Shown here piece by piece: positions 48,299 to 57,316 of a stretch of 64,000 nt of DNA (its first letter is position 1; the number at the start of each line of letters is the position of its first letter). Both the position numbers and the translations under genes were made by a program. The notes under the pieces are model-generated. The model was not told where the DNA came from, searched no databases, and was given only the letters and a program-made list of their open reading frames with translations. The DNA is from Carbonactinospora thermoautotrophica (GTDB lineage Bacteria > Actinomycetota > Actinomycetes > Streptomycetales > Carbonactinosporaceae): assembly GCF_001543895.1 (NCBI RefSeq), contig NZ_JYIJ01000017.1:372001-436000 (forward strand), written 5' to 3'.

Positions 48299-48847
48299 AT
48301 GAACCGAGACGCCCAGCTCGAACTCACCCACCACAACAGCCAGGAAGCACGAGCACTGCTCGATGAACTCTGCGACGTCTACGCGGATGCCTACGGCGTC
48401 GAGCTTGACGGCGAGAAAGTCACGGCCTTCCGCGGCCGTGCGCTGAAGGCGCTTGAGCGTCCGCGCTTCGAGCTGGTCACGGCGCGCTCGGATGGACTGC
48501 TCGCGGGCTTTGTCTTTGGCTATACGCTGCCGGCGGATACGTTCTGGTGGGATGGGTTGACGCCTGAGCCGGCCGAGGGTTTTGTCCTGGAGGACGGGAC
48601 GCGCACCTTCGTGCTGGCTGAGATCGAAGTACGTCGGGCCTGGCAGGGTGCAGGGCTCGGGCGCCGGCTTCATGACGCCATCCTGGCCAGCCGATACGAG
48701 GAACGCGCGACGTTGGCCACTGGCCCCGGTGCTGATGCTGCCCGCGCCATCTATGAGCGCTGGGGTTGGCAGCAGGTGGGCAAGGTGCCAGGTGGGACAG
48801 GGGCCTACTTCTCGGAGTACACGCTCTACCTTCTGCCGCTTCGGTAA
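48299..48847 (+). CDS. GNAT-family N-acetyltransferase
   Basis: The product is about 182 residues with the GNAT acetyl-CoA loop in VLAEIEVRRAWQGAGLGRRL (V-R-x-W-x-G-x-G-x-G), a preceding strand LLAGFVFGYTLPADTFWW, and AARAIYERWGWQQVGKV in the C-terminal part. The substrate is unknown. I chose ATG 48299 (AAGGGG 6 nt upstream); ATGs at 48284 and 48293 are also in frame. Its 3' end overlaps the convergent XRE gene by 22 bp. Confidence 0.88.
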   Translation: MNRDAQLELTHHNSQEARALLDELCDVYADAYGVELDGEKVTAFRGRALKALERPRFELVTARSDGLLAGFVFGYTLPADTFWWDGLTPEPAEGFVLEDGTRTFVLAEIEVRRAWQGAGLGRRLHDAILASRYEERATLATGPGADAARAIYERWGWQQVGKVPGGTGAYFSEYTLYLLPLR

Positions 48848-50436
48848 ACGGCGAGGCGTTCGTCCAGCTCCTGCACTGGCCTGGTCTTCTCCCAAGGGGC
48901 GAGAAGCCCGCGCACCTCATCGATGCGTTGGTCGATCCGCTGTGCGGTGTTGACGGTGGTCAGGCTGGCGACGTCGCCGATAATCCGCGTTGCCTCGGTC
49001 AGTTCGCCGTGCTGGATGTATGCCTCACCGCGGAAGAGCAAGGTAAAGGCGTAGTTGTGCAGGTTGGACGGATCGAAGATGCCGAGCGACTTGGTGACGG
49101 CCTCCAAGGCCAGATCCGGCTGGCCGAGCTTGAGCGCACAGCCGCTCACCGTGGCCCAATAGAACGACTCGTCATAGAAGTACCACCAGGACGGCGCAGG
49201 CTCATCCGCCTGTATGGCCTTCAGAGCAGCGTATTCTCGGTCAAGCGCGGCATGGCACTTGTCTGCCTGGTTGGTGGCTGCATAGGCGCGGGCTGCCACA
49301 TCAGCAGCGTAGGATTGCGCCCGAGGATTACCCGCCTGTTCGGCCCAGGACTGTGCGGCAATGGCGTGGTCAATACCCACCCGCGGTTTACCTTGCCAGG
49401 TGGCGAGGTGGCTCATGGCGCAGAGCACGTAGATCACGAGATCTTCGTTTTCGGCGTCATGGGCGGCGGTGCGTGCATCCTCGTAGTAGTACTGCGCGCC
49501 GCGGTAGTCGCCGAGGTTAAAAAGCTGCCAGCCAATGAGTTGGCTCAGCTCGGCATAGATCGACAGTGCTCGCGGCTTCAAGTGGTCTGGTGCCCCGTCG
49601 ACGAGCCGCTGGACGACCTGGTGCTGGCCCAAGGCGGTTTGCAAGGCAATGCGCGGCCCCAGTACGTCACCCTGGTGACGGCAGCACAGCACGATCTTCT
49701 CTGCGTGGGCCAGCGTTGCCGCATCGAGCTGACTGGAGTCTTCCAGGACGAGCGCGACGCGGCGTTGTTCATCGGGGTCCGAGATGTCGAAGATCGGGGC
49801 GGCGGCTGCCAGCGCGAATGCGGTACTCAGCTTCGAGAGCAATGCTCGCCGGCTAAGGCCAGGAGGTAGCTGGTGCGCCCACATGAGAATCACCTGGGAG
49901 AGTTGAAGGAGGTCCATTTCCGGCAGCTGATCCATGAGTGACGGCGACAGGATCTTTGTTGCCGTCACTTGATGCCAGGGCTCACGAACCAGCGTTGGAT
50001 TGTCTGAGACGGCGATTGGGTGACCGGGTGCAACCGCAGACAGTGGCGCCGGAGCGGGACAGGACTGGTCAGCAGGGTTTGGCTGACCGTAATCCGTGCT
50101 GTCTAATAAATCCTTGACGTCGCACTGGTAAATCCGGGCGAGCCGATCCAGTGCCGTCAGGCTCGGTTCCCGTCCGCTCTGCGGCCAGGTTTCCCAGTAC
50201 GAGATCTGCTTACCGGTTAGTGGCTTCTCGCCATCCTCGCCGAGGAACAGCTCATTCCAACGATCCGCAACCGCTTGCTGGCTGAGTCCATGGGCCAGGC
50301 GGAAGGCGACACGCGCATTCACCCGTTCCTGCTGCGCAATCTGCGCCGCGATCTGCCGCCAGCTCCAACCCTGACGACGCAGCTCTCTGCTGCGCGCGGC
50401 AATCTCGGCCTTGCGGCTGCGGTGCGCCCGTGCCAT
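48826..50436 (-). CDS. XRE-type regulator with TPR-like C-terminal domain
   Basis: The 536-residue protein has a basic N-terminus (MARAHRSRKAEIAARSRELR), a helix-turn-helix (RLAHGLSQQAVADRWNELFL, LTGKQISYWETWPQSGREPS) and a long alpha-helical region of tetratricopeptide-like hairpins from about residue 240 to 510. This is the layout of SARP-related or peptide-responsive actinobacterial regulators. The start at ATG 50436 has GAAGG 9 nt upstream. It is divergent from the operon at 50678-54263 and is the likely regulator of it; that is inference from position. Confidence 0.85.
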   Translation of the reverse strand: MARAHRSRKAEIAARSRELRRQGWSWRQIAAQIAQQERVNARVAFRLAHGLSQQAVADRWNELFLGEDGEKPLTGKQISYWETWPQSGREPSLTALDRLARIYQCDVKDLLDSTDYGQPNPADQSCPAPAPLSAVAPGHPIAVSDNPTLVREPWHQVTATKILSPSLMDQLPEMDLLQLSQVILMWAHQLPPGLSRRALLSKLSTAFALAAAAPIFDISDPDEQRRVALVLEDSSQLDAATLAHAEKIVLCCRHQGDVLGPRIALQTALGQHQVVQRLVDGAPDHLKPRALSIYAELSQLIGWQLFNLGDYRGAQYYYEDARTAAHDAENEDLVIYVLCAMSHLATWQGKPRVGIDHAIAAQSWAEQAGNPRAQSYAADVAARAYAATNQADKCHAALDREYAALKAIQADEPAPSWWYFYDESFYWATVSGCALKLGQPDLALEAVTKSLGIFDPSNLHNYAFTLLFRGEAYIQHGELTEATRIIGDVASLTTVNTAQRIDQRIDEVRGLLAPWEKTRPVQELDERLAVYRSGRR

Positions 50437-50677
50437 GCCTGAGACCTTCCCGCTCATGGTGACTCGCGGGGTCATGGTACGTCGCCCAGCGCGGACAAGC
50501 GACGGCCGCCGATTGCCGAGCAGGGGCTGGGCGCGCGCACTCCACACCCGTGTGGAACTCCCCACCGCCGTGGTATTTCTGCACGCCAGAAGCTCCCCTC
50601 AGCGGTGGTCGCCCGGTGGACATGGCCGGACGAGAGTGGTGGCAGGCAAAAGGACCATCTGATCTGGGAGCCGAGCG

Positions 50678-50851
50678 ATGACCCCTCCTCCCGTTGACGA
50701 CCTCTTCCCTTCCACCGTCCACCAGCTCTCCACCATCGCCAGCCAAGTGCTGAACGAGCACGTCAACGACGCCGGCCTGTGCGCCGTGTGCGGCTCGGCC
50801 TTCCCGTGCGGGCGGGCGGTGCTGGCTGAGCACAACCTGGCTTCTCTTTGA
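50678..50851 (+). CDS. 57-residue protein with Cys motif
   Basis: The ATG at 50678 has GGGAG about 8 nt upstream. The product has an amphipathic helix (TVHQLSTIASQVLNEHVND) and then CAVCGSAFPC, a CxxCx5C cluster that may bind zinc, ending AVLAEHNLASL. The pattern is common in short actinomycete proteins beside XRE and RsbW-like genes, though no function is established. Two hairpins follow it. Confidence 0.7.
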   Translation: MTPPPVDDLFPSTVHQLSTIASQVLNEHVNDAGLCAVCGSAFPCGRAVLAEHNLASL

Positions 50852-50898
50852 GGGTTCCCGGTGTGGCGTCGAGGGCGTCCGGTGACCACACAGGGAAC

Positions 50899-50941
50899 GC
50901 CCCTGGTGCTCGTCCTCCGTCCCCCCTCGGGCACCAGGGGC
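50899..50941. terminator. Hairpin 1 after the 57-residue gene
   Basis: GCCCCTGGTGC at 50899-50909 pairs perfectly with 50931-50941 around a 21-nt loop. It starts 48 nt after the small gene's stop and is followed by CTCAAAAA, so it may be a terminator or attenuator for the downstream operon. Confidence 0.55.
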
Positions 50942-50951
50942 ACTCAAAAAC

Positions 50952-50999
50952 GCAGGGCCGGAGCGTGGTGATGCCGCCGAGCCCGCGCTCCGGCCCTGC
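50952..50999. terminator. Hairpin 2 after the 57-residue gene
   Basis: Perfect 14-bp arms (50952-50965 and 50986-50999; GCAGGGCCGGAGCG) surround a 20-nt loop. It lies 42 nt before the resolvase-like gene. Two strong hairpins in tandem suggest termination or attenuation between the small gene and the next operon. Confidence 0.6.
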
Positions 51000-51040
51000 T
51001 TCCAGCGCAAAGTGCGTCCGACCATAACGGGGAGTCGCGA

Positions 51041-51346
51041 ATGCCGCCTCTGGTCTTTGGCTATGTCCGAGCGTCCAACGTGGTGGATGCCGCCACGTAC
51101 GTCGACCGGCTCCAGAGGGCCGCCGTGTGTGAGGGGATGGTGCTGGTCGACGTCTTTGTCGAGCGCGACTCCTCGCACACGGCGTTCTTCGCCATGCTCG
51201 ATCGGCTGTGCTTCGACGAAGCCGAGGGCGTGCTGGTCCTGGCCGAACAGCACTGGGACGACGAATTCCGGATGCTGGCGGCGCAGTTCATCGACGACAG
51301 CGGGGCGTGGCTATACGTGGTGCGTGAAGTGGAGCACTCCTCGTGA
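51041..51346 (+). CDS. Resolvase-like small protein
   Basis: The 101-residue protein resembles the N-terminal catalytic domain of serine recombinases: VFGYVRASNVVDAATYVDRL with Tyr-Val-Arg-Ala-Ser at the catalytic position. FVERDSSHTAFFAMLDRLC and GVLVLAEQHW follow. It lacks a DNA-binding domain, so it is unlikely to be an active recombinase; a degenerate or regulatory role is more likely. Its stop overlaps the start of the ATP-binding protein (GTGA). Confidence 0.65.
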   Translation: MPPLVFGYVRASNVVDAATYVDRLQRAAVCEGMVLVDVFVERDSSHTAFFAMLDRLCFDEAEGVLVLAEQHWDDEFRMLAAQFIDDSGAWLYVVREVEHSS

Positions 51347-51936
51347 CGGCCACTCCGATACTTCAGCACAGCGCGCCTCCCGTGGTGAGCTACCTCGAAC
51401 TTGCCGGGCTGCTCAGTGCTGTCGGCTGGGCCAGGCGGCATACCCGGGACGTGCTTTCGGCGTGGGGCATCGAGCGCAACGCCGAGACGGTCGAGCTGCT
51501 GGTGAGCGAGCTGGTGACCAACGCCGTGCGGCATGCCCGAGTGCCCGACGGCGCGGTGACGTACCTCGACCTGGCGGAGGTACGGCGGATTTCCCTGACC
51601 CTGCGACTCCGGCGAGACCGGGTGTCGGTGGAGATCTGGGACAGCGATCCCCAGCCACCCGCCATGAGGGAACAGAGCCTCGACGCCGAAGGCGGGCGCG
51701 GCCTTTTCCTGGTCGCCACGCTCAGCAAGGAGTGGGGGTATTACCACCCGCCGACGGGCGGCAAGGTGGTGTGGTGCGTGGTGCCGCTACCGAGTAGCGG
51801 GACCGCGGATGAGGCGAGTGGGACGCCACGGTGGCCAAAACGTCAGCCCCGCACGATGCCGGTACCCAAAGCCGAGGTCGTGAATGATCCGTCGATTCTC
51901 CAGAAGGTGATCGACGGCCTTCGCCAGATGGAGTGA
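51343..51936 (+). CDS. RsbW-like ATP-binding protein (HATPase_c)
   Basis: The 197-residue GHKL protein has ELLVSELVTNAVRHARVPDG (N box), VSVEIWDSDPQPP (G1) and EGGRGLFLVATLSKEWGYY (G2), ending TGGKVVWCVVPLP. The C-terminal extension is about 45 residues. GTG 51343 overlaps the resolvase-like gene. It is likely an anti-sigma-type kinase or ligand-binding partner, a second copy of the type seen at 20317. Confidence 0.85.
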   Translation: MTATPILQHSAPPVVSYLELAGLLSAVGWARRHTRDVLSAWGIERNAETVELLVSELVTNAVRHARVPDGAVTYLDLAEVRRISLTLRLRRDRVSVEIWDSDPQPPAMREQSLDAEGGRGLFLVATLSKEWGYYHPPTGGKVVWCVVPLPSSGTADEASGTPRWPKRQPRTMPVPKAEVVNDPSILQKVIDGLRQME

Positions 51937-52065
51937 CGCCCATAGACGGCACGACCAGCGGGCGAAGGGAGCGCTTCCCATTCGACTCAGATCACCCGCT
52001 AGCGGCGCGCGCCAAGAAAGAATCCACGTAACCTGAACAGCCTGAAACACACGAGGAGACTCGCG

Positions 52066-53166
52066 ATGAAGCGCTCGCTCATCGTCGGCACGCACGCTAA
52101 CTCCTGCTACTTCCGTACGTCAGTCGCCGGCGATGCCCGGAAGGCGCTCATTCAGATCACTGAGCGCTGCAATCTGCACTGCGCTCACTGCTTCGTTTCG
52201 TCGGGCGACTGGGGCGAGCACATGTCGTTCGAGGACATCACTGAACGGGTGTTGCCGAGGTTACGCCGGGCGCGGGTCGAGCGCATCACCTTGACCGGCG
52301 GTGAGCCTTTCGTCCACCCGTCGATCATGGAGATCTGTGCTGCGATCGCGGACTTGGGGATGCCGGTCGGCATCTGCACCAACGCCACTCAGACCACAGA
52401 CGAGCAGATCGCCTACTTACAGTCCTTGGGCAACGTGCATATCAACGTCAGTTTCGATGGGTTCCGCCCGGAGAGCCATGGCAAGTTTCGGGGCAACCAG
52501 TCGTCGTTCGCGACAACCGTTGCCACCACCCGGAAGTTCGCCGAGGCCGGATTGCTGCAAGGGCTGCTGTCCACCCCGAACGCGCTGACGGACGTTGAAG
52601 AATTCGCCGCGCTGTGCGAATTCGCGGTTGAGGTTGGCGCAGGGTATGTCCTGATGAACCCACTCTCCTCATTCGGACGAGGAGTCAAGAGCAGGGGACG
52701 TCTGGCTGCGGACGAGACTAAAATGCGCGCTATCCACACCGTGACTGAGCGCTTCCGCGAGCGCGGCCTGGACGTTGTGCACATCCGCTTCCCCAACGAC
52801 GACAAGCCCCTCGGCGGCTGTGAGGCCGGCAAGCTGATTTATGTCTTCGCCGACGGCCTGACGGCGGTCTGTCCCTACCTCGTGTTCGCGGCCCGCACGC
52901 CACAGTCCAAGTACAAGGATCGGGAGTTCCTGGTGGGCAACATCCTGGAAGGCGAGGTGGCGTCCGCACTCGATGCCTACAACTTTCACGAGCGCTTCGC
53001 CGTTGGTAGCAATGCCAAGTGCGGGGCGTGTGGCATGAACTCACGGTGTGGCAAGGGATGCCCGGCCGCCTTGGTGGCCAGTGGCCAGTACATCAGGGAC
53101 GTGGACCGCGAGCAGTGCCCGGTACCCGATGACGCCGCGATGCTTCCGCTGACGGTGGTCCGCTGA
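52066..53166 (+). CDS. Radical SAM-SPASM enzyme
   Basis: The 366-residue protein has the [4Fe-4S]-SAM motif C35-x3-C39-x2-C42 (CNLHCAHC), the SAM-binding GGEP at 78-81 and a TIM-barrel region. It has a complete SPASM pattern: C252-x11-G264-x4-C269, then C319-x2-C322-x5-C328-x3-C332 and C351. SPASM enzymes usually modify peptides or proteins through auxiliary Fe-S clusters. No precursor peptide is visible in the 129 nt upstream. The SPASM set argues against a viperin. ATG 52066 has GAGGAG 8 nt upstream. The next gene starts on the last base of its stop (TGATG), so expression with it is coupled. Confidence 0.88.
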   Translation: MKRSLIVGTHANSCYFRTSVAGDARKALIQITERCNLHCAHCFVSSGDWGEHMSFEDITERVLPRLRRARVERITLTGGEPFVHPSIMEICAAIADLGMPVGICTNATQTTDEQIAYLQSLGNVHINVSFDGFRPESHGKFRGNQSSFATTVATTRKFAEAGLLQGLLSTPNALTDVEEFAALCEFAVEVGAGYVLMNPLSSFGRGVKSRGRLAADETKMRAIHTVTERFRERGLDVVHIRFPNDDKPLGGCEAGKLIYVFADGLTAVCPYLVFAARTPQSKYKDREFLVGNILEGEVASALDAYNFHERFAVGSNAKCGACGMNSRCGKGCPAALVASGQYIRDVDREQCPVPDDAAMLPLTVVR

Positions 53167-53441
53167 TGACTGGTCTGTTCATCGTCATCGAGGGACCGAA
53201 CGGAGTCGGCAAAACCACTGTCGCCTCGTTGCTGGGGACGCGACTCCGCGAACGGTCAGCCGCTCGCGTGCACCTGACGCCCGAGCCGACTCATACCCCG
53301 CTCGGGCGGCTGCTTCGATCGTCGGAATCGGTGCTGACCGGCCGGGCACTGGCGCTGGCCATGGCAGCAGATCGCTACCTCCACGTGGAGTGCGAGATCA
53401 TTCCGCGGCTTGACGATCTCGGCAAACGAGCGGATAACTGA
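53166..53441 (+). CDS. Thymidylate kinase-like protein, C-terminally truncated
   Basis: The 91 residues match the first third of dTMP kinase: FIVIEGPNGVGKTTVASLLG (P-loop at 10-18), LTPEPTHTPLGRLLRS and ALALAMAADRYLHVECEIIP. The frame then ends where family members have the DRY motif and the lid; full-length enzymes are about 200-215 residues. As written it cannot be an active kinase. The next gene begins at the very next base, so a deletion may have joined them. Its retained P-loop could still bind nucleotide. Its start is coupled to the radical SAM gene. Confidence 0.75.
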   Translation: MTGLFIVIEGPNGVGKTTVASLLGTRLRERSAARVHLTPEPTHTPLGRLLRSSESVLTGRALALAMAADRYLHVECEIIPRLDDLGKRADN

Positions 53442-54263
53442 GTGCAGATGTTTTCGATCTTGACTGTCAACATTGGCGCGGCCTCACGCGAGCGCGCCGA
53501 GGTCATGTTGCGCTGGCTGGCCGCCCGGCCAGAGGACGTGTTCATCCTGACCGAAACCAGCGCGGGCGCTGGCACGACCTATCTGCTTGATAAGTTCCGT
53601 CAGGCTGGCTTCGCCGTGGTGCACACGCCGGACGCGACCGGCGACCGCGGGACGGCGCTCGTGAGCCGGGTATCGGTCACCGACACGCTGTCCGGCCACT
53701 TCGCGGGCGTGAGCATCCCGGGCCGGGTGGCCAGCGCGCTGCTGGCAACCGAGCCGGCCGTGGCCGTGCTCGGCGTGTACGTGCCGAGCCGGGATCGCAG
53801 CGTCGAGAAGACCGAGAAGAAGCAGGCGTTCATCGACTCGCTCCTGGCCAGGCTCGACGCGCTGCCCGACGAGCTGCGTGAGCGTCTGGTGCTTGGCGGT
53901 GACTACAACGTCATCGCCCGCACGCATCAACCGCTACATCCGGGCTTCCTGGCCTTCGAGTTCGGCCTGTTGGAGGCCATTGAGGCGCACGGCTTCGTCG
54001 ACGCGCACGAACGCTGCTCCCCTGGTGAGCAGGTCTACAGCTGGATCGGCCGGACCGGGGACGGCTACCGCTACGACTACTTTCACGTCGGCCAGGCGCT
54101 CGGCGCCCACATCATGGGATGTGCCTACCTGCAGGAGACGCGTGAGCAGCGCCTCACCGATCACGCCGCCGTGACGCTCCAGCTCGATGTGACCGTCCAG
54201 TCCCGACTGGAGACCAGCGACCCAGCCGACACGACCGAGGCCGACGCGATGACGCTGTTCTAG
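53442..54263 (+). CDS. Endonuclease/exonuclease/phosphatase (EEP) family protein
   Basis: The 273-residue protein has the EEP fold residues: Asn10 in LTVNIG, Glu38 in ILTETS, Asp154-x-Asn156 in LGGDYNVIAR, Asp212 in YRYDYFHVG, and Asp240-His241 in LTDHAAVTL. These are the metal and acid-base residues of ExoIII/DNase I-type phosphodiesterases. The substrate could be DNA, RNA or a nucleotide. The start is GTG 53442 or, two codons later, ATG 53448, directly after the truncated kinase. Its 3' end overlaps the convergent CYTH gene by 4 bp. Confidence 0.85.
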   Translation: MQMFSILTVNIGAASRERAEVMLRWLAARPEDVFILTETSAGAGTTYLLDKFRQAGFAVVHTPDATGDRGTALVSRVSVTDTLSGHFAGVSIPGRVASALLATEPAVAVLGVYVPSRDRSVEKTEKKQAFIDSLLARLDALPDELRERLVLGGDYNVIARTHQPLHPGFLAFEFGLLEAIEAHGFVDAHERCSPGEQVYSWIGRTGDGYRYDYFHVGQALGAHIMGCAYLQETREQRLTDHAAVTLQLDVTVQSRLETSDPADTTEADAMTLF

Positions 54264-54808
54264 ACCAGCGTGGCTCGCACCAAGGAGTCGTAGGTGTCAG
54301 TCGTGCGCTCCACGTCCACACCGAGCGAGCGCACGAAACGGTCAAGCTCGGCCTGGACCTCGGGACCGGACTCGCCTGGTCCTACGACCTTCTCGACCTC
54401 CAGGAACACGCCCGCGTGCTCCACCTTGTCCAGGCACAGGCTCAACTCGCCCGAGGTGGCCGTACGGCGAGTCTTCACGATGCGCACGGTGGGATAGCAG
54501 CCCATCGCCAGGATCGCTCGGTGCATCTCGTCGCGGTCGGCTACCTCGGTCTCGTGCTCCAGGCAGGCCATCTCGTTGTCCAGCGGCTTCTTGAGCGTGA
54601 ACAAGTGCCGACCATCCTGCGTACGCAGCCGGGCGAAGGCGACGCCGACCTTGCTCATGCCGTACTCCCAGCCAGCCTGGGCGTACGCCTGGTCGTCCTG
54701 ATGGACGGGCGCGGAGAGCACCAGGCCGTGACGTGCAAGCGCCTGCTCCAGCGCCTCAGCGTCCCGGACGCGGTACTTGACCTCGATCTCGCGCGCTCCG
54801 TCGTTCAC
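54260..54808 (-). CDS. CYTH-domain protein (CyaB/thiamine triphosphatase-like)
   Basis: The 182-residue CYTH protein has the ExExK signature at E7, E9 and K11, then VGVAFARLRTQDGRHLFTLK with tunnel Arg/Lys, LEHETEVADRDEM, VRIVKTRRTA, LCLDKVEHAGVFLEVEKVVG, and a C-terminal TDTYDSLV. CYTH enzymes hydrolyse triphosphates or make cAMP. GTG 54808 follows GGAGAGG. It faces the radical SAM operon convergently; the association may be chance, but both handle nucleotide-type substrates. Confidence 0.88.
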   Translation of the reverse strand: MNDGAREIEVKYRVRDAEALEQALARHGLVLSAPVHQDDQAYAQAGWEYGMSKVGVAFARLRTQDGRHLFTLKKPLDNEMACLEHETEVADRDEMHRAILAMGCYPTVRIVKTRRTATSGELSLCLDKVEHAGVFLEVEKVVGPGESGPEVQAELDRFVRSLGVDVERTTDTYDSLVRATLV

Positions 54809-54822
54809 GCACCTCTCCTCGG

Positions 54823-54918
54823 TCAGCGCAGACAGTCGATCTCCACCCCATCGCGCCGGATCACGAACTCCAGGTTCAGCCGCAGCCCGGCGCTTCCACC
54901 CCGCCCCAACGTCGTCAC
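54823..54918 (-). CDS. Possible 31-residue protein coupled to efeB
   Basis: GTG 54918 overlaps the efeB stop (GTGA) and opens a 31-codon frame with a strand-like pattern (GLRLNLEFVIRRDG, VEIDC). The coupling and composition are suggestive, but no family is recognised and it may be fortuitous. Confidence 0.3.
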   Translation of the reverse strand: MTTLGRGGSAGLRLNLEFVIRRDGVEIDCLR

Positions 54919-56159
54919 GCGAACAACCGCTGCCCCCAGAACTCCCCGGGCCGGACGCCGGGCGGGCAGGCCCAGATGCCGGACCCGGTGTGCTGGAGGT
55001 ACTCCATCATCCGATCCCGGGCGGAGAGCTTCGCCTGCAGCGGGATGAACTGCTTGCGCGGGTCGCGCTGGTAGGCGATGAAGAACAGGCCGGCGTCGAG
55101 GCGGCCCAGCCCGTCGGAGCCGTCGACGAACGAGTAGCCGCGCCGCAGGATCCGCAGCCCGCCATTGGCCCCAGGGTGGGACAGCGCCACGTGGGAGTCG
55201 GCGGGCAGCTTGGCCAGGTCCACCGGGTCGTGCTCGCGGGCGGCCCCGAGAGGCGCGCCCTCGCCCTTGGTACGGCCGACGATCTGCTCCTGCTCGGCCA
55301 GCGGGGCGCGGTCCCAGGTCTCGATGTGCATCCGGATGCGGCGCGCGACCAGGTACGAGCCGCCGACCATCCAGTCCGGGCCGTCCTCGGGCGCGACCCA
55401 CACATGCTGCCGCAGCGCCTCGGTGTCGTCGCCGGGGATGTTGTTGGTGCCGTCCTTGAACCCGAACAGGTTGCGCGGGGTCTGTTCGGACGGCGTGGTC
55501 GAGGAGGTCTTGCCGAAGCCGAGCTGCGACCACCGGACGGCGACGACCCCGAAGCCGATGCGGGCGAGGTTGCGGACGGCGTGCACGGCCACCTGCGGGT
55601 CGTCGGAGCACGCCTGGATCGCGAGGTCGCCGCCGCATCGCGCCGGGTCGAGCTTGTCGCCGGGGAAGTGCGGCAGGTCCACCAGCGCGGCCGGCCGCCG
55701 GGAGCGCAGCCCGAACCGGTCCTTCCCGTCCTTCTCGAACAGGGTCGGCCCGAACCCGATGGTGATCGTGAGCCGGGCGGGCGGCAGGCCGAGCGCCTCC
55801 CCGGTGTCGTCCGGCGGCGCCTCCGGGATGCCGCCGACCGCGCCGCCCGGCCCGGCGTCCTGCCCGGCGGTCATCCGGGCGGCGGCGTCGGTCCACTTCC
55901 GGAGCAGGGCGACCAGGGCCTCGCGCGAGTCGGTGATGACGTCGAACGCGCAGAAGTGCAGCCGGTCCTGGACCGGGGTGGCGATGCCCGCCTGGTGCTC
56001 GCCGTGGAACGGCACCGCGGCCGTGGAGGCCGCCTGGTCCGCGGGGGTCGCCGCGTGGCTCGCGGCGTATCCCGCGCCGGCCCCGCCGGCCGCTCCGAAC
56101 AGCAGTCCGATCCCGGCCGCGCCCAGCAGGCCGCGACGACTCACCGTCTGCTCGCCCAT
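54915..56159 (-). CDS. efeB: Deferrochelatase/peroxidase, Dyp-type
   Basis: The 414-residue protein has a Tat signal (TVSRRGLLGAAGIGLLFGAA), then a Dyp-type heme peroxidase: LTITIGFGPTLFEKDG, NLFGFKDGTNNI (GxxDG with the catalytic Asp), VGGSYLVARRIRMHIETWDR and ALSHPGANGGLRILRRGYSF, with the proximal heme His probably in this last region. EfeB takes part in ferrous iron or heme-iron uptake at the cell surface. ATG 56159 follows GAGAGGAG. It is 23 nt downstream of efeO, forming efeO-efeB without an efeU permease in the window. Confidence 0.93.
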   Translation of the reverse strand: MGEQTVSRRGLLGAAGIGLLFGAAGGAGAGYAASHAATPADQAASTAAVPFHGEHQAGIATPVQDRLHFCAFDVITDSREALVALLRKWTDAAARMTAGQDAGPGGAVGGIPEAPPDDTGEALGLPPARLTITIGFGPTLFEKDGKDRFGLRSRRPAALVDLPHFPGDKLDPARCGGDLAIQACSDDPQVAVHAVRNLARIGFGVVAVRWSQLGFGKTSSTTPSEQTPRNLFGFKDGTNNIPGDDTEALRQHVWVAPEDGPDWMVGGSYLVARRIRMHIETWDRAPLAEQEQIVGRTKGEGAPLGAAREHDPVDLAKLPADSHVALSHPGANGGLRILRRGYSFVDGSDGLGRLDAGLFFIAYQRDPRKQFIPLQAKLSARDRMMEYLQHTGSGIWACPPGVRPGEFWGQRLFA

Positions 56160-56182
56160 GCCGTTCTCCTCTCTTACCTCTC

Positions 56183-57316
56183 TTAGCCCGCGACCGTGCC
56201 GGCCAGCTTGGACAACGGTTCGGCCAGCCCGTTCACCGCGTCGGACAGCTCCTTGCGCTGCGGCTCGGTCACCGTGTCGTACGAGACGTAGCCGTCGCCG
56301 GACCGGTACTTGGCCAGCAGCCCCTCCACCTTGGCGAACTCGGCGTCCAGCCGCTGCGCCAGCGCCGCGTCCTTCTGCTGCACGACGGGCTTGAGCAGCT
56401 CGTACACCTTCCTGGCGCCCTCGACGTTGGCGGCGAAGTCCCACAGGTCGGTGTGGCTGAACGCCTCCTCCTCGCCGGTGACCTTGCCGGTCGCGACCTC
56501 GTCGAGCAGCTCCTTGGCGCCGTTCGCCATCGAGGTGGGGGTGATCTCGGCCGTCTTCACGCGCTGTTGCAGGTCGCGCAGGTCGGCCAGGAGCTGGTCG
56601 GCGTACCGCTCCTCACCGGCCGTGGCGCCCTTGACCCACAGCGCCTTCTCCAGCCGGTGCCACCCGGTCCACTGCTGGCCGGCCTCCAGGTCGGCCTCGC
56701 GCAGGTCGACCTTGGGGTCGATGTCCCCGAAGCTCTCGGCGACCGGCTCGACGCGCTCCCAGCCCACGCGGGACGGGGCGTAGAGCTGCTTGGCCTGCGC
56801 CACGTCACCGGCCTTGACGGCGGCGGCGAACCGCTGCGTGGCCGACAGGGTGGCGTCGACCTGTTGCTGCACGTAGGTGCGGTACTCGTCCACCGCCCGG
56901 GCCAGTCGCGGATCGCTCGCGGCGGTGCCGCCGGAGCCGACGACGGTGATGGCCTGGCGGATGCCGTCGCCCTGCTTGCCGGGCTTGCAGGCGACCTGGT
57001 AGGAGCCGGCGGCGAGCGTCACGGTGAGCTGCTCGGTGTCGCCCGGGTCGACGTTGTGCAGCTCGTCGACCTTGCGGTCGCCCGGCGCGTACACGTAGAA
57101 CTCGGTGGCCTTCGCGCCCTTGTTGGTGACCGCGAAGTGGACGGTGCCGGCCGGGATCCGTGCCTTCGCGACCTGGCAGGCGGTGTCGGTGGCGGTCACG
57201 CTGACCGCGTCCGCGGCGATCTCGGGCTGGTCACCCGCGCCGCCGCATCCAGCCACCACGGCGAGGGTGAACGCACCGAGCCCGGGCAGGATGAGTGGGC
57301 GAACGTACACAGGCAT
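56183..57316 (-). CDS. efeO: Iron uptake lipoprotein EfeO (cupredoxin + M75/imelysin domain)
   Basis: The 377-residue protein has a signal with lipobox VAGC (Cys24), an N-terminal cupredoxin-like domain (VHFAVTNKGAKATEFYVYAP; VTLAAGSYQVACKPG) and a C-terminal imelysin domain with the HxxE metal motif in GWHRLEKALWVKG. EfeO binds iron outside the membrane and hands it to EfeU/EfeB. It is probably iron-regulated: a DtxR/IdeR-like box lies 21 bp upstream of its start. Confidence 0.93.
   Translation of the reverse strand: MPVYVRPLILPGLGAFTLAVVAGCGGAGDQPEIAADAVSVTATDTACQVAKARIPAGTVHFAVTNKGAKATEFYVYAPGDRKVDELHNVDPGDTEQLTVTLAAGSYQVACKPGKQGDGIRQAITVVGSGGTAASDPRLARAVDEYRTYVQQQVDATLSATQRFAAAVKAGDVAQAKQLYAPSRVGWERVEPVAESFGDIDPKVDLREADLEAGQQWTGWHRLEKALWVKGATAGEERYADQLLADLRDLQQRVKTAEITPTSMANGAKELLDEVATGKVTGEEEAFSHTDLWDFAANVEGARKVYELLKPVVQQKDAALAQRLDAEFAKVEGLLAKYRSGDGYVSYDTVTEPQRKELSDAVNGLAEPLSKLAGTVAG

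Follow-up and report, generated by a model that had tools for sequence, protein, structure and literature searches.

The genes at 48826-54808 of a 64,000-nucleotide stretch of Carbonactinospora thermoautotrophica (contig NZ_JYIJ01000017.1; hereafter the window) raise the question of what a radical S-adenosylmethionine (SAM) enzyme with a SPASM domain, a fragment of a nucleotide kinase and an endonuclease/exonuclease/phosphatase (EEP) enzyme could do together. A sequence-only reading had taken them for a coherent, undescribed system that might make a modified peptide or nucleotide signal. Coherent and undescribed the system apparently is, as a conserved cassette; a nucleotide product is possible, while the peptide lost ground because no precursor is conserved. 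Our analysis suggests that the window probably holds a decaying member of a mobile family of 'poison and antidote' nucleotide cassettes. We infer that intact members would use a radical SAM enzyme (of the SPASM type in the window) to rewrite a pyrimidine deoxynucleotide, that a dedicated thymidylate-kinase-like enzyme would phosphorylate the rewritten deoxynucleotide towards the triphosphate, and that the resulting analogue would damage or halt DNA synthesis. Protection would come in two layers: a triphosphate hydrolase (a CYTH protein in the window, MazG or NUDIX proteins elsewhere) would clean the nucleotide pool, and a repair enzyme (the window EEP nuclease, perhaps clamp-directed; DEDDh or OGG1/AlkA-like enzymes elsewhere) would excise the incorporated analogue.

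The core of the locus consists of three closely packed genes on the forward strand. The radical SAM gene (52066..53166; PF04055, 8.5e-24), presumed to encode the producer, overlaps by 1 base (53166) the 91-residue reading frame of a thymidylate kinase (TMK) remnant (53166..53441; Thymidylate_kin match). With zero spacing (53442) there follows the gene of an ExoIII/AP-endonuclease-type EEP nuclease (53442..54263; PF03372), the presumed DNA-level antidote. The order radical SAM-TMK-EEP, which we call type I, was found with near-identical spacing in 19 distinct loci of Actinomycetota and Bacillota (Clostridia). Because order and spacing recur in 19 loci of two phyla, the arrangement goes beyond chance. 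A genome scan with the window radical SAM enzyme revealed relatives in Actinorugispora (L009, an example of an intact cassette), Micromonospora, Lentzea and three clostridial assemblies, the clostridial identities going down to about 42-43%; genome samples, plasmids and IMG/VR supplied further type I loci. The sequence-only reading would have been refuted had these families lain apart in most genomes. They do not: the radical SAM and EEP genes are adjacent in all but one of the 20 type I loci, the exception being a locus without its radical SAM gene, which has been lost. The co-occurrence with a full-length TMK that it had suggested was also seen, such a kinase lying beside the radical SAM gene in relatives. 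The cassette is sporadic (about 1-2% of genomes), sometimes plasmid-borne, and mobile: it was found in 7 of 392 genomes of the order and 4 of 395 of the class, both counts including the window's genome, and in 1 of 299 genomes of a clostridial family. No tRNA marking an integration site was found in the window. A phage origin of the cassette was rejected, as relatives of the radical SAM enzyme were absent from 50,697 phage records and limited to two contigs in IMG/VR. Near the cassette of the clostridial locus L013 (3487-7197 and 9169-9984), we observed genes for a DUF4231/SLATT-like membrane protein, a nucleotidyltransferase and an N6 DNA methylase; an uncharacterised membrane protein is encoded directly before its radical SAM gene.

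Presumed triphosphate-handling genes accompany many of these cassettes. The CYTH gene of the window (54260..54808, reverse strand; PF01928, 1e-14), a presumed triphosphatase gene convergent with the EEP gene, was missing from the sequence-only gene list; it shares 4 bases with the EEP gene and is part of the neighbourhood. CYTH genes follow type I and type III cassettes (defined below). Among type I loci, they lie within about 4 kb of the radical SAM start in the window, L009, L023, L041 and L042 and 8.6 kb away in L044, and one adjoins the EEP gene in the decayed locus L149. A MazG-like gene directly follows the EEP gene in nine Streptomycetaceae-type loci; the MazG assignment is weak on one sequence (E 0.003), and the L028 copy is annotated MazG-like. 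Directly beyond the CYTH gene of the window lies that of an EfeB-type Dyp peroxidase (iron uptake; 54915-56444).

The kinase ties type I to a larger set of cassettes. A profile (A2) built from cassette kinases alone was run on the genome samples of the order and the class with a cut of 140 bits. A radical SAM gene or its remnant stands beside the kinase in 42 of the 43 loci above this cut, whereas by chance about 3% of genes would have a radical SAM gene within 2.5 kb (about 30 such genes in 5.1 Mb). The sole exception, L096, retains a glycosylase remnant. Borderline TMK matches at about 125-131 bits came from the class sample; in the tree, the four that were tested fall with the housekeeping enzyme, and none of the cassette partners sought was present at their loci. 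The cassette kinases, by contrast, make up a single clade (100/100 support) distinct from housekeeping TMK, and the kinases of types II and IV (see below) each form one clade.

This kinase clade is paired with four or five unrelated radical SAM families. Type II combines a second radical SAM enzyme (CPLDCAYC), an exonuclease of the RNase_T/DEDDh family and the TMK; homologues of three window proteins described below, the 57-residue cysteine protein, the 101-residue protein and the ATPase, often come next. Type III consists of an HhH-GPD protein, a B12-dependent radical SAM enzyme and the TMK, then a NUDIX or CYTH protein. The TMK precedes another B12-type radical SAM enzyme in type IV (L099, L142 and L143), and in L144 a fifth radical SAM enzyme, read from sequence, accompanies the TMK together with a MazG-like gene. 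In the composite locus L130, a type II cassette, a type III cassette and a CYTH gene form one gene run. The type III HhH-GPD protein is an AlkA/OGG1-type glycosylase by profile (2e-5); its AlphaFold model has a pLDDT of 90, and 8-oxoguanine glycosylases (OGG1) are the top Foldseek matches (E 1.8e-8). The type III radical SAM enzyme has a B12-binding domain, and its matches in the Protein Data Bank are AprD4-like, not OxsB. Across the types, the partner enzymes recur in two kinds, namely DNA repair (EEP, DEDDh, glycosylase) and triphosphate handling (CYTH, MazG-like, NUDIX). It is quite possible, and we propose it tentatively, that these mobile cassettes form a superfamily not recognised before, in which one dedicated TMK clade would serve at least five radical SAM enzymes for different deoxynucleotide poisons, with two-layer immunity (pool triphosphatase and DNA repair) and clamp-tethered exonucleases.

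In the window itself the kinase is broken. The 91-residue frame aligns only to positions 1-78 of the 185 of Thymidylate_kin, whereas most relatives are full-length (about 197-211 residues with P-loop, DRY motif and LID); the P-loop remnant recognised in the sequence-only reading is therefore real. An in-frame loss of about 115 codons joins approximately residue 83 to the apparent last residues of the gene, taking out the DRY motif and the LID and leaving the P-loop part. Since the kinase is broken, the window locus alone probably no longer makes the product; the nuclease and the CYTH protein are retained. The cassette kinase is of the dTMP-kinase type, and the host genome carries its own dTMP kinase elsewhere. 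The same genome also contains, about 207 kb from the window cassette, a type II locus (L051, 14323-16797, G000:C17) with an intact kinase and DEDDh exonuclease and a radical SAM gene that changes frame. As one locus is without a kinase and the other without a clean radical SAM gene, the L051 kinase could in principle supply the window locus. Elsewhere in L051 (2864-8641) we observed a separate cluster, either nucleotide-related or resembling those of ribosomally synthesized and post-translationally modified peptides (RiPPs), which encodes a PqqD-like 110-residue protein, radical SAM enzymes and two P-loop kinases.

Decay of the cassettes is one-sided. Of 51 type I-III loci, 12 lack an intact radical SAM gene: it is missing, interrupted, truncated or shifted in frame. 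A broken radical SAM gene occurs with an intact repair enzyme in nine loci, and an intact one without a repair enzyme in none (exact two-sided p = 0.004), a count that spans draft genomes and ignores kinship, the radical SAM gene being moreover the longest. The radical SAM gene of L042 carries a 6.3-kb insertion. L149, the nearest relative of the window (EEP 74% and CYTH 72% identical), has lost the radical SAM gene and the kinase N-terminus and has kept EEP and CYTH. Loss of the radical SAM gene with the repair enzyme kept is the pattern that would be expected of a poison with its antidote; it is not proof, because drafts, shared ancestry and gene length matter.

The same gene content could also form a repair and salvage island with nothing toxic in it, where the radical SAM enzyme repairs a damaged nucleotide, the nuclease or glycosylase removes lesions, the TMK salvages the nucleotide set free and NUDIX, MazG or CYTH proteins clean the pool. 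The partners are indeed repair and sanitation enzymes, and radical SAM repair enzymes such as spore photoproduct lyase exist. A presence in 1-2% of genomes argues against this, and retention of the repair enzyme after loss of the radical SAM gene (9 versus 0) is unexpected if all parts serve a single repair task. With four or five unrelated radical SAM enzymes around one kinase, varied products are a better fit than varied lesions, and the type II radical SAM profile did not match the solved spore photoproduct lyases. We consider such an island improbable.

The repair enzyme of type I appears to act on DNA. Its profile matches ExoIII structures at 4e-20, and also AP endonucleases, and the catalytic residues N10, E38, D154, N156, D240 and H241 are invariant. 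The EEP fold named in the sequence-only reading thus holds, but a signalling phosphodiesterase is not supported, the enzyme being by profile of the DNA-acting ExoIII/AP-endonuclease type. The window EEP ends in a sliding-clamp-like -TLF tail (54252..54260). An -LF end after an acidic stretch is found in 15 of the 17 actinomycete EEPs listed, including those of the window and L149. All nine DEDDh exonucleases seen end similarly: eight in -LF (seven of type II and one encoded near L041) and that of L051 in -LFE. Two unrelated exonuclease folds therefore share an acidic -LF tail, which no other cassette protein has; the background of -LF ends is 17 of 618 gene models, several being those same nucleases. 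The tails resemble the C-terminal part of sliding-clamp-binding peptides, whose consensus is QL[S/D]LF, with QLGLF in Pol II (PMC3716654), and could perhaps bind the clamp. EEP homologues 27-34% identical to that of the window were also observed in plasmid records, mostly from Streptomyces (L052-L057). Their genes often adjoin that of an aldo/keto reductase, in clusters that also hold genes for an aminotransferase, a formyltransferase, NUDIX, HIT or radical SAM proteins; these clusters are possibly a sister family of nucleotide clusters.

DNA-type nucleases would also suit a system of DNA base or sugar modification, in which the radical SAM enzyme and the kinase make a modified dTTP for deliberate incorporation, while editing or restriction falls to the nuclease or glycosylase. 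In phage thymidine hypermodification, kinases are likewise combined with glycosylase-fold proteins and radical enzymes. However, conserved genes for a hydroxymethylase, a DNA methylase or a reader are absent from every cassette type, the radical SAM enzyme lacks relatives in the phage records mentioned above, and the nucleases bear repair-type features. Deliberate modification of DNA is accordingly an unlikely function.

The radical SAM enzyme of the window is a complete SPASM enzyme, as the sequence-only reading had stated, with the CxxxCxxC core and the full seven-cysteine SPASM pattern. Its cluster motif C35-x3-C39-x2-C42 (52168..52191) is kept in 16 of 16 aligned intact members, two plasmid-collection rows being left out of the alignment. 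The SPASM domain (C252 to C351; 52819..53118) carries C252...G264-x4-C269, C319-x2-C322-x5-C328-x3-C332 and C351, with its cysteines invariant across 18 members; all these motif positions are invariant or nearly so. No B12-binding Pfam domain was matched. The predicted structure has a mean pLDDT of 65, mostly below 50 in the SPASM part. Clustering of the enzyme with a known metabolic family would have refuted the sequence-only reading; no named metabolic family's cut-off was reached among the models listed, the scores including 88 bits for NirJ, 79 for the mycofactocin maturase and 66 for the prokaryotic viperin pVip. Identity with viperin was rejected on the SPASM domain and on the pVip score, lower than the other two.

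SPASM cysteines, together with the peptide maturase SkfB as the nearest solved structure to the type I enzyme (the nucleoside enzyme BlsE comes second), could point to RiPP maturation, the substrate being a small peptide and possibly the 57-residue cysteine protein (50678..50851, forward strand; CAVCGSAFPC) that the sequence-only reading had named. None of the 19 other type I loci encodes this protein; its homologues, 55-70% identical, occur in type II loci, directly after the TMK in L085, L089 and L092, where they stand beside a different radical SAM enzyme. On both counts it is no conserved substrate of the SPASM enzyme. It had no match in the plasmid collection. Clustering of flanking reading frames of at least 30 residues gave no small peptide common to the loci, no PqqD match was found among cassette proteins, and no precursor or RRE/PqqD partner is shared; the partner enzymes, besides, act on nucleotides and DNA. 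As no precursor is conserved, the peptide explanation fails, and we regard it as very improbable.

The regulator and ATPase genes upstream of the core appear to be attached to it. All genes named in the sequence-only reading are open over the spans given there, and the divergent regulator and tight packing that it described were found. The regulator, of the NsdA family of XRE/TPR proteins, lies on the reverse strand (48826..50565; NCBIfam NF053720, 193 bits, cut-off 75). On the forward strand, a 101-residue degenerate resolvase-N-terminal-like protein (51041..51346) overlaps by 4 bases (51343) an RsbW-like HATPase_c_2 protein (51343..51936; PF13581, 5e-15). The 101-residue frame has no Pfam match of its own; its homologues follow the TMK in the type II loci L089, L092, L130 and L137, and that of L089 matches Resolvase (PF00239) at 1.4e-5. 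RsbW-like ATPases turn up again in type II, and several loci of types I and III have one upstream. The sequence-only reading had counted regulator and ATPase within the system. NsdA-type regulators and RsbW-type ATPases do recur near several other cassettes, yet are not a feature of the majority, which makes them look like regulation added to the cassette and likely not part of its core.

Where the product would act is a separate matter. The chemistry proposed for the poison-and-antidote cassette would be the same if the product stayed in the cell as a viperin-like phage inhibitor instead of being exported as an antibiotic, and the two are not exclusive. The core encodes no exporter, the cassette is mobile and sporadic, and a clostridial copy lies near SLATT-like and nucleotidyltransferase genes. 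Viperin, moreover, makes a chain-terminating nucleotide, and an exonuclease can strip ddhC from RNA ends (PMC9415739). PADLOC defence models, however, were matched only through generic radical SAM and P-loop similarity, and the three genes of the thm cassette (see below) also include no exporter, yet an antibiotic is made. An intracellular phage inhibitor is possible but rather unlikely.

Several observations weigh against a nucleotide poison with self-immunity, besides the limits of the decay count. SPASM domains are found mostly in peptide maturases, SkfB among them, and the missing exporter counts here as well. CYTH and MazG genes are absent from L043 and the Clostridia, and type II has no obvious triphosphatase. 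The nuclease tails match the clamp consensus only at its final two positions (LF), the leading Gln not being conserved, and clostridial EEPs have no -LF tail. The toxic product and the enzyme activities are predictions from gene content. Should the nucleotide poison nevertheless be confirmed, a single kinase profile would find cassettes likely to make new deoxynucleoside antimetabolites, a minable family whose immunity genes would predict the product's effect on DNA. It would add DNA-level self-immunity, by exonuclease or glycosylase, to nucleotide-analogue production, and the cassettes would supply radical SAM enzymes of several families ready for testing.

Among open-licence papers, we found none in which a TMK clade, several radical SAM families and DNA-repair enzymes come together in a single kind of cassette. 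The closest known systems share some of these features. XthA and APE1 share the fold and catalytic residues of the window EEP; the latter differs by its acidic -LF tail, its operon with radical SAM and TMK genes and its score of 64 bits on the xth equivalog, below the 99-bit cut-off. Prokaryotic viperins, which make ddhNTPs, are found with kinases and follow the same logic of radical SAM enzyme and nucleotide kinase. They have no SPASM domain, whereas the window enzyme has seven SPASM cysteines, and their products are ribonucleotides, while the partners in the cassette are DNA enzymes. The radical SAM enzymes of oxetanocin and albucidin, OxsB and AlsB, act on dAMP or dATP (PMC13331322). They too use deoxynucleotides to give nucleoside toxins, with a phosphohydrolase, OxsA, but they are cobalamin-dependent, in contrast to the type I enzyme with its SPASM domain and no B12 domain. 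In the albucidin BAC, a thymidylate kinase gene lies five genes before albA, outside the minimal set (PMC7074753, Table 1). The DNA glycosylases TxnU2/U4 provide self-resistance to trioxacarcin (PMC8934636); a cluster-encoded DNA-repair enzyme guards the producer's DNA, as proposed here, although the target is adducts of a DNA-binding polyketide and the glycosylases belong to other families. In Photorhabdus, thmA-C, encoding a radical SAM enzyme, a nucleoside kinase and a triphosphatase, suffice for 4'-thiothymidine production in E. coli; the triphosphatase alone confers resistance, and 4'-thiothymidine enters DNA (PMC12691670). The kinase there is of the AbmG type and not of the dTMP-kinase type, and a DNA-repair nuclease or glycosylase is not reported. 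Yet radical SAM, kinase and triphosphatase genes are adjacent in thmA-C, and CYTH or MazG-like genes, presumed to encode triphosphatases, lie near most type I cassettes; by this likeness in gene kinds, thmA-C appears to be the best published parallel.

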